Assembly: GCA_029261515.1 (NCBI GenBank)
Contig: JAJDBE010000234.1
Span: 1-50,139, forward strand
From: Nitrospinaceae bacterium
Lineage (GTDB): Bacteria; Nitrospinota; Nitrospinia; Nitrospinales; VA-1
Direction: 5' to 3'
DNA: 50,139 nucleotides
The position numbers and the translations under genes are program-made. This document shows, in pieces, positions 16,043 to 33,918 of this stretch (position 1 is the stretch's first letter; the number at the start of each line of letters is the position of its first letter). A model generated the notes under the pieces. The model was not told the DNA's origin. It ran no database searches and was given only the letters and a program-made list of their open reading frames with translations.

Positions 16043-16609
16043 TCACCCCTTTGGGGATTTCTGCTCTTTGAAGGTTCGGGTGGTCCGCTCCTCCGGTTCA
16101 CTCAACACCTGTTCGAGAATCAGTTGGCAGATTCGCGATACGCCGGGCGTGACCTCGATTGAAAACGCTCCCTGATTAAACATCTCCAGAGTGATGATTC
16201 CCAATCCGGTTCCGCAATGAATCGTTGGCGCCGTGATATGGACGGACAGGCCCAAACGGGCAAGACTGCTTTTCCCCTCGATCCGGGCGGCCAACCGGGA
16301 TCGGGAAGGAAGCTCAATCTTCTCAAAAGTCGAGGCAAGGTAAACCGTGTGCGGTTGGATCAGATAGGTTCCTGAAGCTTCCCTGGCTACTTCCACCAGA
16401 AATCGCTCTGACAACTCTTTATAGTTGAACTGCCCCACGCTGACCCTGAATCCCGTTCTCTGAATCAATTCTTCATCCCAGCTCCATAAGGATTCGCCCA
16501 TTCGCAAATCGATCGAGGTGCTGTCCATCTGGATTTCTTCGGGTAAGGGATCAATCACCAAGGCACCTTTTTGCAAAGCCTTGCGAATGTCCACATTGCT
16601 CAATATCAT
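16043..16609 (-). CDS. dcd: dCTP deaminase
   Basis: Deaminates dCTP to dUTP, feeding thymidylate synthesis. The 188-residue protein has SIDLRMG near the N terminus, the phosphate-binding EGKSSLARLGLSVH and IITLEMFN, whose Glu is the catalytic residue of true deaminases. It is the last gene of an xseA-xseB-tlyA-dcd operon, overlapping the tlyA stop by four bases (ATGA). The intact Glu contrasts with the dUTPase/Dcd-fold protein at 32162-32989, where that residue is Ser. Confidence 0.95.
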   Translation of the reverse strand: MILSNVDIRKALQKGALVIDPLPEEIQMDSTSIDLRMGESLWSWDEELIQRTGFRVSVGQFNYKELSERFLVEVAREASGTYLIQPHTVYLASTFEKIELPSRSRLAARIEGKSSLARLGLSVHITAPTIHCGTGLGIITLEMFNQGAFSIEVTPGVSRICQLILEQVLSEPEERTTRTFKEQKSPKG

Positions 16610-29622: not shown

Positions 29623-31092
29623 ATGCTCATGCCGGTCTTAGTAAAAAAATATTCATTCCTCACTCTGATCATCTACCTTCATGTCTTGATATTTATCCTA
29701 GGCGGCTTCAGTTTTATTATCCGATACTTGCAATACCATTCCCCTCAACATTTAGCGGGATCTCTGGTTTTATTCTGTTTCTCTGGATTTTTGATCTTTG
29801 CCTCACGAAAAAACTCAGAATTTAAAACCAATTTGGCGCTTTTCCTGGCCGGAGCGACCATTTCCGTTTTTGCTTGCGAATATTTGATGCAGTTTTATTT
29901 TTCACAAACCGAAGAAAAAACCAATCTGGAATGGGCCCGGCAACAGGGACTCTCTTTTGACACAAGAACCCCTTTGCAGGTTTTGGAAGACTTGAAAAAT
30001 ACTGGGGAAGAATACTACCTGGTCGTGCAGGCAAGCTCTTTCAGGCGTTTATACAACCGGCCTTTGTTAATAAACGAAAAAGAAGTCATCCCCTTCGGTG
30101 GCGTGGCCAATGTGAATACATTGTTGTGCAATGAATCAGGAACCTATGTCACTTATGATTCGGACGAGTTCGGTTTCAATAATCCACCGGGTGTTTGGAA
30201 AAACAAAAATAAAACCAATCTTTACTTTGTCGGAGATTCTTTCACCCAGGGAAGGTGCGTCCCCAGGGAGGATACTTTCGTTGATCGGGTAAGAAAACAA
30301 TTTCCCGATACGATTGCAATGGGTATTTCAAACAATGGTCCCTTAAGCGAATTAGGCTCCCTCAGGGAATATTTGCACGACTTAAAAACCAGCTATGTTT
30401 TCTGGATGTATTTCGAAGGAAATGACCTGACCAATCTGAATGAAGAGAAAGGCTCCCCTATTTTGATGAACTATTTGGAGCCAAATTTTTCGCAACAGCT
30501 GAAAAAAAACTTTGGTGCCATCAATGCCTCTCTAAAGTCATACATGAATACTTTAGTCGAGGAGGAAAAAAATAAGATCCACAAAACTCAGATTAAAGAA
30601 GAAACAAAAAACATCTGGCAGAATATGTGGACACACCCGCTCAACTTTTTTTTCCCCAGCATCTATTCGTTGGCAAAAAAAACTTTTACTCTTAAAAAAG
30701 AAAACTATAAATTCCTCGTGGATATGGAATTGTTTGAGAAGGTAATGCGCCAGGCAAAGTCATTTGTCAATGAAACAGGAGGCAAACTGGTTTTTGTGTA
30801 TCTCCCTTCCTATGAAAGTTTTGCCGGTTTGAAAACCATTGGGGCTTTGGCCAAAAAAGATGTTTTGCAAATCATTGAAAAAATAAATGTCGATTTTATC
30901 GATATGGAAGCCGAATTTGAAAAATTGAAGGACCCCAAATCCGTTTTCCCGTTCAGGAAAAAAAACCATTACAACGTTTTGGGAAATTTCTTAATCGCAG
31001 AGCAAATCATAAAATATCTCCATGCAAATAATCCGAGTTCGCCTCATCAAACGAGTCACACGGGAGCAAATGACAACCTGATACGCCGTTAA
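29623..31092 (+). CDS. Membrane-anchored SGNH/GDSL-type hydrolase-like protein
   Basis: A 489-residue protein with three N-terminal membrane helices within about residues 10-90, then an extracytoplasmic domain. SGNH-type blocks are visible: YFVGDSFTQGR near residue 203 (nucleophile Ser), SNNGPLSELG, YFEGNDLTNL (the G-N-D block) and a C-terminal NHYNVLGNFLIAEQ with the block V His. Relatives are esterases or acyltransferases, including enzymes that acetylate exopolysaccharide. It is somewhat AT-rich compared with the preceding genes. GGAG lies five bases before the ATG. Placement after three glycosyltransferase genes suggests modification of their glycan product, an inference. Confidence 0.75.
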   Translation: MLMPVLVKKYSFLTLIIYLHVLIFILGGFSFIIRYLQYHSPQHLAGSLVLFCFSGFLIFASRKNSEFKTNLALFLAGATISVFACEYLMQFYFSQTEEKTNLEWARQQGLSFDTRTPLQVLEDLKNTGEEYYLVVQASSFRRLYNRPLLINEKEVIPFGGVANVNTLLCNESGTYVTYDSDEFGFNNPPGVWKNKNKTNLYFVGDSFTQGRCVPREDTFVDRVRKQFPDTIAMGISNNGPLSELGSLREYLHDLKTSYVFWMYFEGNDLTNLNEEKGSPILMNYLEPNFSQQLKKNFGAINASLKSYMNTLVEEEKNKIHKTQIKEETKNIWQNMWTHPLNFFFPSIYSLAKKTFTLKKENYKFLVDMELFEKVMRQAKSFVNETGGKLVFVYLPSYESFAGLKTIGALAKKDVLQIIEKINVDFIDMEAEFEKLKDPKSVFPFRKKNHYNVLGNFLIAEQIIKYLHANNPSSPHQTSHTGANDNLIRR

Positions 31093-31177: not shown

Positions 31178-32158
31178 TTAATTTATTAAATGATTAATAT
31201 TCCATTTTGGTGGGTACCAATAGTGAATTGGTTCGGGATTCAGTTTGAATTTTTGCTTGATCTTCTGTCGACCGGATATACCTTTAATATGAGGATGGCT
31301 GATTCTAGAATATTTGTCGACCTCACAAAAAATATTTTGGCAATCGATAAGCTGAAGTGGCCTTCCCCAAAGAGATTTGAACTCTAAACCCAGCCTTTCA
31401 AATTCTCTTTCCTGAATATCAGCCATATACCTTATTACATCGGAGTCACACAGCCCTCCGGTGTCCAAAAAACATTTTCTAATCCCATCCTTGGCCCCAG
31501 GCCCCGCTACAACGAATTCATTCTCTTGAGCATTGGTCAACTCGCTATAAGCAACATCGATGGCATATTGATAAGCTAAAAAAGGACCCAGGGTTGGATA
31601 TTCAAAGAATAACTTAAAAATTTCTTCCAAACTTTTTGCGTCTGTTATCTTTTTAGGAAGATGAGTTTTTATCATCAATTCAATCAACCTTAAATGATTT
31701 TGATGTTTTTTCGTGGCACCAAAGCTACTTTTTCCTGAGGGCATTATATAGGCTCCCGAGTATATCTTTTTCCCCTCCTTTATTATCTTTTGTAACAACG
31801 AATCATAAGTCTTATATGAAAAATCTTTTAACTCAATTTGGTTTCCTAGACTATTCTCTAGAAATTGCCAAGTTTCTATTTTATTGAAAATTTTGAAAAG
31901 AATAATTCGGAAGAAAACTTCTTTTGGGCGTTGAGACCCTTTATAGATAACATTTCGAATCAGGAATTGACTGACTCTATCCGATGCGCGGTAGGCATTA
32001 GTGAATTTATAACAGCTTAAGATGGGGTCTAAGGTGAGGGGAGCAACCGGATTTGAAATTCGTCTAAAAAAAATATTTTGTCGCTCAAATGCAAATTTCC
32101 AGTAGACATCGAAAATTGAAGTATTGCGAAAAAACGTTGGGGAAATGGAAGTAAGCAA
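31178..32158 (-). CDS. 5-hydroxymethyl-dU DNA kinase-helical / thymine-pyrophosphorylase-like family protein
   Basis: A 326-residue protein matching a family described for phage DNA base hypermodification and annotated as 5-hmdU DNA kinase helical domain or alpha-glutamyl/putrescinyl-thymine pyrophosphorylase. Hallmarks are WKFAFERQNIFFRR (20-33), DPILSCYKFTNAYRASDRVSQ (44-64, given in part), FRIILFKIFNKIETW, GAYIMPSG, YPTLGPFLAYQYAID (187-201, like a helix-hairpin-helix glycosylase with trailing Asp), GPGAKDGIRKCF and RPLQLIDCQNIFCEVDKY. Start is TTG, six bases past the TAG of the upstream gene and in its frame. It is AT-rich. The exact reaction is unknown; a role on modified or free bases is inferred. 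Confidence 0.75.
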   Translation of the reverse strand: MLTSISPTFFRNTSIFDVYWKFAFERQNIFFRRISNPVAPLTLDPILSCYKFTNAYRASDRVSQFLIRNVIYKGSQRPKEVFFRIILFKIFNKIETWQFLENSLGNQIELKDFSYKTYDSLLQKIIKEGKKIYSGAYIMPSGKSSFGATKKHQNHLRLIELMIKTHLPKKITDAKSLEEIFKLFFEYPTLGPFLAYQYAIDVAYSELTNAQENEFVVAGPGAKDGIRKCFLDTGGLCDSDVIRYMADIQEREFERLGLEFKSLWGRPLQLIDCQNIFCEVDKYSRISHPHIKGISGRQKIKQKFKLNPEPIHYWYPPKWNINHLIN

Positions 32159-32161
32159 AAC

Positions 32162-32989
32162 CTAATCTTTTAAAGGGAGTCCGTTGGGCTTTGGTTTTAA
32201 ATTTCTCATTTCTTGTTCTACGAGTTTTTTAATTTGATCCTTTGATTGGGTTTGGATTTCCTTTTCAATTTTCATATGAACTTTCTCTTCGATTTTATTA
32301 TTTTTGTGCAAATCCCACAACAATCTACCAGAAAAAGTTAATAGAATAAAACTAAGAGCAGCTATTAGTCCTCCGAGCACCCATTTTTTTACATTATTCT
32401 CAACGTCCTTGATTTCATCTCTAAGGTCAGTAATTCTATCCTTAAGAGCTATTGGATTATACACTTCGCCATTTATAGAATTTATCAAGTCCACACCGAT
32501 TTCATTAAAGCCCTCGGCCTTCTTAATATAATTGGATTTTTTATCTAAACTGGCGTACCAAATTAGAAAAAATTTTTGACCTCTCCTTAAAGTTATACTT
32601 TTCGGTCCCGCGTTATAAACCGAAAATATTAGCCTTCCTTTATATCCAGGATCAACGTGAAAACCAGAAACATTCACTAACCCTTGGAATTTGTATTTGG
32701 CCTTAAAAGAAATAAAAGCTATGGCATCTTCCGGGACATGAACTATTTCTTCAGTAAGAAAAAATGCAAATTGACCATACGGAATATTAAAATGTTGATT
32801 TTCCTCTAGGGCTTGTTTTGTGTGGTTTCTAATTTCAGGAGACTCATAATTGGGGGTAATAAATACTTCAGACCCAATTCTTAAAGGGTAAGCAGCACAA
32901 TCTATATTGTTTTCGGAAGCTGCTGTCCCATCTTCCAAAGTAATCAATTCGGGAAGTCTATCTCTGAGAGTCTCACCACTCCAAAACAT
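32162..32989 (-). CDS. dUTPase/dCTP-deaminase-fold protein with transmembrane and coiled-coil tail
   Basis: A 275-residue protein. Residues 1-150 follow the dCTP deaminase/dUTPase fold: AAYPLRIGSEV, SFKAKYKFQGLVNVSGFHVDPGYKG in pieces, then LIFSVYNAGP and RRGQKFFLIWYA. Asp113 of GFHVDPGY matches the conserved Asp of the fold, but the deaminase Glu aligns with Ser123 and the SS of the phosphate loop is replaced. Deamination is therefore unlikely; dUTP hydrolysis or nucleotide sensing is possible. A coiled coil, one membrane helix (203-221) and a second charged helix follow. AGGA lies eight bases before the ATG. Being membrane-tethered is unusual for the fold. Confidence 0.75.
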   Translation of the reverse strand: MFWSGETLRDRLPELITLEDGTAASENNIDCAAYPLRIGSEVFITPNYESPEIRNHTKQALEENQHFNIPYGQFAFFLTEEIVHVPEDAIAFISFKAKYKFQGLVNVSGFHVDPGYKGRLIFSVYNAGPKSITLRRGQKFFLIWYASLDKKSNYIKKAEGFNEIGVDLINSINGEVYNPIALKDRITDLRDEIKDVENNVKKWVLGGLIAALSFILLTFSGRLLWDLHKNNKIEEKVHMKIEKEIQTQSKDQIKKLVEQEMRNLKPKPNGLPLKD

Positions 32990-33013: not shown

Positions 33014-33667
33014 TTACAGATTTCCGAAGAAAATTGATCGCTTTTCAACTTCCAACCAGCGGTCTCGGACGGCCTGAAAAAGATCCAGGTTTAATTGAGA
33101 GGAAAATATGAGGGTGGATTCAAAAATTTCCTTTAATCCTTTAGTAATTATTTCCTTGAATGAGTAAGCCTCTAAATGATCCAGCTTTTCGCAGGCCTTT
33201 GCAATTTTCCCATTCCCTTTGGACAAAGCTTTTAAAAACCAATCGGGATCGAATTTTGAAAGGTGATTTGCTTCTTTCAATGCATTTCCTAACTCCTTAC
33301 AAGTAAGCACCCCTTGGTTTGGCAATTCTTTTAATCCATCAGAAAGTTTCAAGTTCAAAATATTGCCCATAATTAGGCTGATCACAAAAATGTCTATAAT
33401 CGTTTGCTCAAGGTTCGTTCGGTTTTTTTGAGTTGATCCATTTTCTTCAATGGTTTCAGCAATTTGGCCAGCATACTTTGCAAAATGTAAGGTCATATGA
33501 TTGATTCGGTTCTGAACCGATAACGAACAAATTTCTTTATGATATTTCTCATCATGCTTTAGCTGTTCCAATTGAAGCTCGAAAATCTGTTCAAAGACAT
33601 CTTTAAATGGATTTTCCTCCTTTGGACTCACTCCTTTTATATCTAAAACCTTCGCCCGAGCTCCCAT
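33014..33667 (-). CDS. Unrecognised all-helical protein, faintly MazG-like
   Basis: A 217-residue, AT-rich, probably soluble helical protein. I do not recognise it with confidence. The segments HFAKYAGQIAETIEEN (about 60-75) and TIIDIFVISLIMGNIL recall the two metal-binding helices of MazG-type all-alpha NTP pyrophosphatases (E..GELAE and ELADVLIYLL), but the acidic residues are mostly absent. It would thus be inactive or merely similar. It overlaps the stop of the upstream ribbon-helix-helix gene by one base (TGATG) and precedes the dUTPase-fold gene by 24 bases. A partner-toxin role with the small regulator is another possibility. Confidence 0.6.
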   Translation of the reverse strand: MGARAKVLDIKGVSPKEENPFKDVFEQIFELQLEQLKHDEKYHKEICSLSVQNRINHMTLHFAKYAGQIAETIEENGSTQKNRTNLEQTIIDIFVISLIMGNILNLKLSDGLKELPNQGVLTCKELGNALKEANHLSKFDPDWFLKALSKGNGKIAKACEKLDHLEAYSFKEIITKGLKEIFESTLIFSSQLNLDLFQAVRDRWLEVEKRSIFFGNL

Positions 33668-33918
33668 CAGGTTCCCCCTTTATCCTTATTTAATTGGATA
33701 ATTTTACTCTTCTCATTATTTTTTCTACTTTCCCAAGCAATCTTCACATCCTTTTCTTCCTTAAGTTTTTTTGCAAAAAGCTCATTTATAGCCCGTTCCA
33801 CAATTTGGGAATACTTTAGACGAAATTCCAGGCAGTCACTTAATATTTCAATTTTGGCAACAACTTCTGAGTCTAAAGTGAAATTTTTACGGGCTTTATT
33901 TTCTTTTTTTGGTGCCAT
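33667..33918 (-). CDS. Ribbon-helix-helix DNA-binding protein
   Basis: An 83-residue basic protein. KNFTLD forms the expected beta strand, followed by helix VVAKIEILSDCLEF, a short turn and helix SQIVERAINELFAKKL, the usual ribbon-helix-helix order, then a charged tail. GAGGG precedes the ATG. A palindrome at 33942-33952 between the promoter and the ATG fits autoregulation. First gene of the four-gene island, whose members are separated by -1, 24 and 3 bases. Such proteins also serve as antitoxins. Confidence 0.7.
   Translation of the reverse strand: MAPKKENKARKNFTLDSEVVAKIEILSDCLEFRLKYSQIVERAINELFAKKLKEEKDVKIAWESRKNNEKSKIIQLNKDKGGT

Follow-up and report, generated by a model that had tools for sequence, protein, structure and literature searches.

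A gene in the 50,139-nucleotide contig of a Nitrospinaceae bacterium analysed here in its full length (the window) encodes DCD-TM, a protein in which a domain of the dCTP-deaminase/dUTPase fold is followed by a coiled coil and a predicted membrane helix. We propose, with a probability of about 0.45, that DCD-TM sits in the membrane as a receptor or adaptor that binds a pyrimidine deoxynucleotide, and that it is a core part of a mobile defence system centred on thymidine nucleotides. The defence role is suggested by related operons and not by the operon of the window, and we likewise infer the ligand, the direction of signalling and the effect on the membrane. This receptor/adaptor reading is favoured over a tethered hydrolase, a scaffold for base modification, or a toxin neutralised by its neighbour P4. 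An earlier note on the same DNA had already suggested sensing or signal-triggered membrane action, on the grounds that the catalytic Glu of deaminases is lost; the operon context, which was not considered there, carries most of the evidence and is a stronger argument than the loss of the Glu. The features of the locus are listed in Table 1.

Table 1. Features of the DCD-TM locus, in positions of the window
Feature	Position	Strand	Basis
RHH/Arc-like small putative regulator, operon head	33667..33918	-	weak PHROG transcription-regulator matches, 0.006-0.02
P4 partner, all-helical, MazG/dimeric-dUTPase-like	33014..33667	-	directly upstream of DCD-TM
DCD-TM (dCTP-deaminase/dUTPase-fold domain, coiled coil and single TM helix, 275 aa)	32162..32989	-	Pfam, AF2, Foldseek, 89-member family
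Nucleotide-binding-fold domain of DCD-TM, residues 1-150	32540..32989	-	column counts over 89 sequences
D113 of DCD-TM	32651-32653	-	
S123 of DCD-TM (Dcd Glu position)	32621-32623	-	
Heptad coiled coil of DCD-TM, residues 179-200	32390..32455	-	conserved 3-4 hydrophobic spacing; helical in model
Putative transmembrane helix of DCD-TM, residues 203-221	32327..32383	-	Kyte-Doolittle 1.95 over 19 residues
PF18723 (HMUDK_hel) protein, related to thymine-hypermodification proteins of phages	31178..32158	-	Pfam 1.7e-110

The open reading frame of DCD-TM was confirmed at 32162-32989 on the minus strand, with a start, MFWSG, that is common to the family. Residues 4-145 match the Pfam family DCD (PF22769; 2.7e-13; score 50.7 bits, cut-off 27), and the score with TIGR02274, the dCTP deaminase equivalog, is 68.9 bits, below the curated cut-off of 92.8. 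The AF2 monomer model (mean pLDDT 90.7) consists of a beta-rich domain and then one continuous helix spanning residues 179-263. Its best Foldseek matches were the dUTPase 8y1w of T. pacificus and E. coli Dcd (E 1.4e-12), and the dUTPase P45 (9ln0) and E. coli Dcd variants were also matched, at E about 1e-12. DCD-TM thus has the same fold as Dcd (TIGR02274; E. coli 1xs1; Foldseek E about 1e-12 to 1e-11), but it is devoid of the catalytic Glu and the SS pair of the E. coli enzyme. Among the matches there were also a dTTP complex from M. tuberculosis and the E138A Dcd-dTTP complex (2j4q), the latter of which indicates that the Dcd fold binds dTTP without the Glu. By sequence profile and predicted structure, the family can be assigned to the Dcd/dUTPase fold superfamily, and its members are probably trimeric. 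Public annotation presents its genes as deaminases or as hypothetical.

Scans of genomes and viral contigs with the single DCD-TM sequence found no relatives, which were recovered by an alignment-based scan. A profile search over one genome per species yielded 189 of them, and 80 loci were retained; further relatives came from plasmids (9) and a viral contig (1), and the alignment and its counts cover 89 sequences. They occur in Alpha- and Gammaproteobacteria, Cyanobacteria, Acidobacteria, Bacteroidota, Planctomycetota, Chloroflexi, Acidimicrobiia, Binatota and Eremiobacterota. Active sites were compared across homologues, a check that the earlier note had proposed. The column of the deaminase Glu (E. 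coli E138), to which Ser123 had been aligned by eye, holds Ser in 54 sequences, Ala in 32 and Thr in 3, and Glu in none of the 89. The reported replacement of the SS phosphate-binding pair was also borne out: the two Ser of motif 2 correspond to A97/K98 in the window protein (in the family mostly A, then K/T/R/G), so that the RSS phosphate-binding motif reads K-A-K here and mostly K/R-A-K/T/R/G at positions 96-98 of the family. In addition, the Arg after motif 2 has mostly become aromatic or Met (F/W/Y/M at 101), the Gln of motif 4 is mostly Leu (L142), and the C-terminal motif 5 of trimeric dUTPases is missing, with residues 150-178 running into the coiled coil.

Other parts of the domain are strictly kept. 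Eleven positions (K100, G103, L104, N106, S108, G109, F110, D113, P114, G118 and N126) are invariant in 89/89 sequences, and H111, V112, G115 and L120 vary in at most one. The GYKG motif is retained, as had been noted, with its G118 invariant, and D113 is the motif-3 Asp of trimeric dUTPases. The retention of this Asp, which had been read from an alignment with the window's own dcd, holds against Dcd of the E. coli type but not against that gene, which has no Asp there. The window's own Dcd (16043-16609, minus strand; by its score of 104.6 bits a true dCTP deaminase) carries IHCGTG in place of the RIDPGW of E. coli Dcd. The lack of the Glu in all 89 sequences, taken together with the invariant set, therefore points to a pocket under selection that lacks deaminase chemistry: judging from the alignment, the fold is under strong selection with a changed set of ligand contacts, which is a repurposed pocket and not decay. 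A degenerate pseudogene is ruled out by the 11 invariant positions and the intact operon, and an ordinary dCTP deaminase by the missing Glu and motif 2; with these residues, the family would be unable to deaminate dCTP by the known mechanism.

The coiled coil and the transmembrane helix that had been described after the domain are both recurrent in the family. In 72-100% of the 89 sequences, hydrophobic residues occupy positions 179, 182, 186, 189, 193, 197 and 200, whereas the positions in between are mostly hydrophobic in 15% or less (35% at most; 31% at 196). By this pattern the linker is a conserved heptad coiled coil, and it is helical in the AF2 model. A hydropathy peak after the domain (Kyte-Doolittle mean of at least 1.6), as expected for a membrane helix, is reached by 86 of the 89 proteins, compared to 202 of 1780 shuffled tails (11%).

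The closest solved relatives of DCD-TM, both by sequence (family profile, E 7e-21) and by fold, are the archaeal Dcd-like dUTPases 8y1w and 9ln0, which, like DCD-TM, lack the deaminase Glu and keep VDPG.G, and which have Met in place of the Glu. Since these proteins are called dUTPases, the loss of the Glu removes deamination but not necessarily hydrolysis, it is not on its own a proof of lost catalysis, and it was a weak reason for the earlier note to invoke sensing. DCD-TM could accordingly be an active membrane-localised pyrophosphatase of the dUTPase type, possibly for 5-modified dUTP, working through D113 and tethered only to be positioned near the modification or replication machinery. 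The invariance of D113 and the prevalence of nucleotide enzymes among the neighbours agree with such an activity. However, the archaeal enzymes are short untethered chains that retain the RSS, Arg and Gln, all of them replaced in DCD-TM, which has instead a coiled coil and a membrane helix and no motif-5 tail. Moreover, a dUTPase is already present in the host, and we consider the tethered hydrolase unlikely.

The genes of the window operon follow the order RHH-like, P4, DCD-TM and PF18723, all on the minus strand. Neighbouring genes overlap by 1 nt or are separated by up to 24 nt, and with 35% GC they lie below the 50% of the window. Dut (dUTPase) and Dcd enzymes of its own are encoded in the host genome, so pool maintenance is already covered. 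Together with the family-wide absence of the Glu, and with a low-GC operon that carries a phage-type modification gene, this upholds the earlier view that DCD-TM is not a pool-maintenance deaminase. The gene was detected in none of 76 other genomes of the host phylum, and the DCD-TM of the window clusters with gammaproteobacterial sequences from Pseudomonas, Acinetobacter and Marinobacter (tree support 0.94); with the deviating GC of the island, this points to a horizontal origin. No convincing att repeats were found around the island, and in a search for an orthologous empty site in relatives the flanking gene proved too poorly conserved. A gene (29623-31092, plus strand, 39.7% GC) whose 489-aa product has no match in Pfam adjoins the island, of which it may be a part. 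The operon has no TS-family (thymidylate synthase) gene, and in the host genome, which is about 90% complete, neither such a gene (PF00303) nor MazG_C was detected; the host possibly depends on ThyX. As the minimal operon contains no TS-type source of modified dUMP, the substrate may come from the phage.

Across the family, 83 of the 89 loci carry one or more genes of the PF18723, TS-type, MazG_C or P4 kinds within 8 kb of DCD-TM. Within this distance, PF18723 occurs in 57 loci, TS genes in 48 (TS-like in 43, PF00303 TS in 9), MazG_C in 39 and P4 in 34, accompanied by regulators (ImmA/IrrE in 36, HTH in 26), AcpS (23), C1 peptidase (13), Nmad2 (11), TIR (10), UDG (9) and DUF1643 (7). The phylum-wide background of PF18723 (4/77 genomes) and MazG_C (1/77) places this association far from chance. 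In 22 loci, PF18723 is the immediate downstream neighbour of DCD-TM, with a median gap of 2.5 nt. The partners point to thymidylate-type nucleotides, since they include TS, a thymidylate kinase fused to PF18723 (L070 and L074), a dNMP kinase in E. coli and a PF18723-MazG_C fusion (L082); the catalytic PC motif is present in the neighbouring enzyme of the TS superfamily. In 10 loci, DCD-TM comes with a ThsB-type TIR and Nmad2, and in the haloarchaeon Natronomonas a DUF4231/SLATT-like protein with two membrane segments and a TIR come after P4. Both contexts suit the sensing or signal-triggered membrane action that had been suggested earlier.

A kinase role for PF18723 in the window operon was rejected, as the protein consists of the helical domain alone and the Walker A pattern is rare (3 of 60 PF18723 proteins); its public labels, nucleotide or 5-hmdU DNA kinase, may mislead for the same reason. 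An ACP-annotated gene, with weak Pfam support as such, adjoins the HTH regulator in related loci, and may be the reason for the presence of AcpS/PPTase. There are also cassettes with no DCD-TM gene in view (L097, L099, L109 and L110), so DCD-TM is not needed in every system. One of them (L097, genome G009), from the order of the host, is composed of PPTase, ACP-like, HTH, ImmA, C1 peptidase, TS, MazG_C and PF18723 genes.

Such a gene content could also be that of a base-modification pathway of mobile elements, for self-marking or anti-restriction, in which DCD-TM would be a membrane scaffold or a regulator of the nucleotide pool, with no immune signalling. The relatives of PF18723 in 491 phage records and the DCD-TM relatives on plasmids speak for this, and the TS-like genes, ACP/PPTase and MazG_C look biosynthetic. 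We find it quite unlikely, however, because the window operon and 11 other loci contain, of the tracked families, only P4 and PF18723, with no TS-type gene nearby, and because the TIR, SLATT-like and UDG partners and the HTH-ImmA regulators are better suited to a conditional conflict system.

Wherever P4 was recognised (34 loci), its gene directly precedes that of DCD-TM on the same strand, at a median gap of 4 nt. The P4 alignment shows thirteen invariant residues (H38, D39, H43, R54, H57, H61, K64, Y65, D92, E160, D163, H164 and E166), and its model is all-helical (pLDDT 90.6), with fold matches below threshold only, the sensible best being the dimeric dUTPase of T. cruzi and DCTPP1 (Foldseek). 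The P4 of the window has no Pfam match above cut-off, a PDB profile search with P4 gave nothing significant, and its hhalign match to MazG/MazG_C is weak. An assignment as an established MazG is thus unproven by Pfam, PDB profile, Foldseek and hhalign, and P4 is kept as MazG-like only. Near DCD-TM, P4 and MazG_C occur together in 4 loci, P4 only in 30, MazG_C only in 35 and neither in 20 (n=89; Fisher p 1e-6, for loci that are not independent, both types being found in several parts of the tree), a mutual exclusion that fits P4 as a stand-in for MazG. It is very improbable that P4 and DCD-TM form an inhibitor or toxin-antitoxin-like pair, with P4 holding the membrane protein in an inactive state: its fixed position upstream, and its fusion to an N-terminal membrane domain in one locus (L064, 5672-7012, directly upstream of DCD-TM), are in line with this, but a recognised P4 is missing from 55 of the 89 loci and its invariant His/Asp/Glu set resembles that of an enzyme.

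If DCD-TM is a receptor or adaptor, phage infection would change the pool of thymidine/uridine deoxynucleotides, either natural or 5-modified, and P4 (or MazG/MazG_C) and the PF18723 protein would act on these nucleotides or on the modified base in DNA. The resulting pyrimidine deoxynucleotide would be bound by the DCD-TM trimer in its retained pocket, and through the coiled coil this binding would be signalled to the membrane or a partner effector (the ThsB-type TIR where present), so that membrane action or the effector would stop the infected cell. A more specific version is possible but on the doubtful side, namely that DCD-TM is a trimeric immune receptor-effector of the dUTPase fold, unrelated to the known cyclic-nucleotide receptors, which senses a thymidine-type or modified pyrimidine deoxynucleotide arising from infection and acts on the membrane or the TIR. 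Modified thymine bases are a battleground between bacteria and phages, and DCD-TM is a candidate for reading this chemistry as a danger signal. The minimal operon of the window (P4, DCD-TM and PF18723) is small enough for cloning and testing.

A similar operon, TS-DNMK-PF18723-TIR-Nmad2, is found in E. coli in an apparent chromosomal mobile element. Two DNA queries for DCD-TM copies in E. coli, which diverged copies could escape, matched TIR-Nmad2 only, a match seen in 16 of 5,426 genomes. According to the text of the DefensePredictor paper, validated anti-phage systems contain thymidylate synthase and 5-hydroxymethyluracil kinase, a figure legend lists TS, dNMPk, 5hmdUk and NMAD, and MazG, MazG-C, aGPT-Pplase, dUTPase, UDG and NMAD are named in predicted systems (PMC13092281). 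The domains of the E. coli operon match the list of the validated systems (PMC13092281), and the operon may be the validated system itself. With the loci of DCD-TM, the systems in the same text have PF18723, TS, MazG_C, Nmad2 and UDG in common, but neither a membrane-tethered Glu-less family of the Dcd fold nor P4 is described in it (PMC13092281). Compared to the 5hmdUk/TS/TIR/NMAD-type systems, the operon of the window has the PF18723 gene but no TS, and the TIR and Nmad2 pair is absent.

In the nucleotide-depletion defence of the AvcID/dCTP-deaminase type, dCTP is destroyed by an active deaminase; the use of nucleotide metabolism against phages is a likeness to the DCD-TM operons, whereas DCD-TM is without the catalytic residue. 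Several of the aGPT-Pplase/MazG/MazG-C/dUTPase/UDG domains were reportedly predicted earlier by Burroughs et al. 2015. Both the Dcd/dUTPase fold and nucleotide-centred defence operons as a wider class are already known or predicted, and what is new relative to the accessible literature, to which Burroughs et al. 2015 does not belong, is the Glu-less, membrane-tethered family with its coiled coil and the P4 partner. Homologues of P4, annotated as hypothetical, also occur in T4-like Acinetobacter phages and a Pseudomonas jumbo phage; in Acinetobacter phage Acj61 (L105, 3995-4597), the gene lies near those of dexA and topoisomerase.
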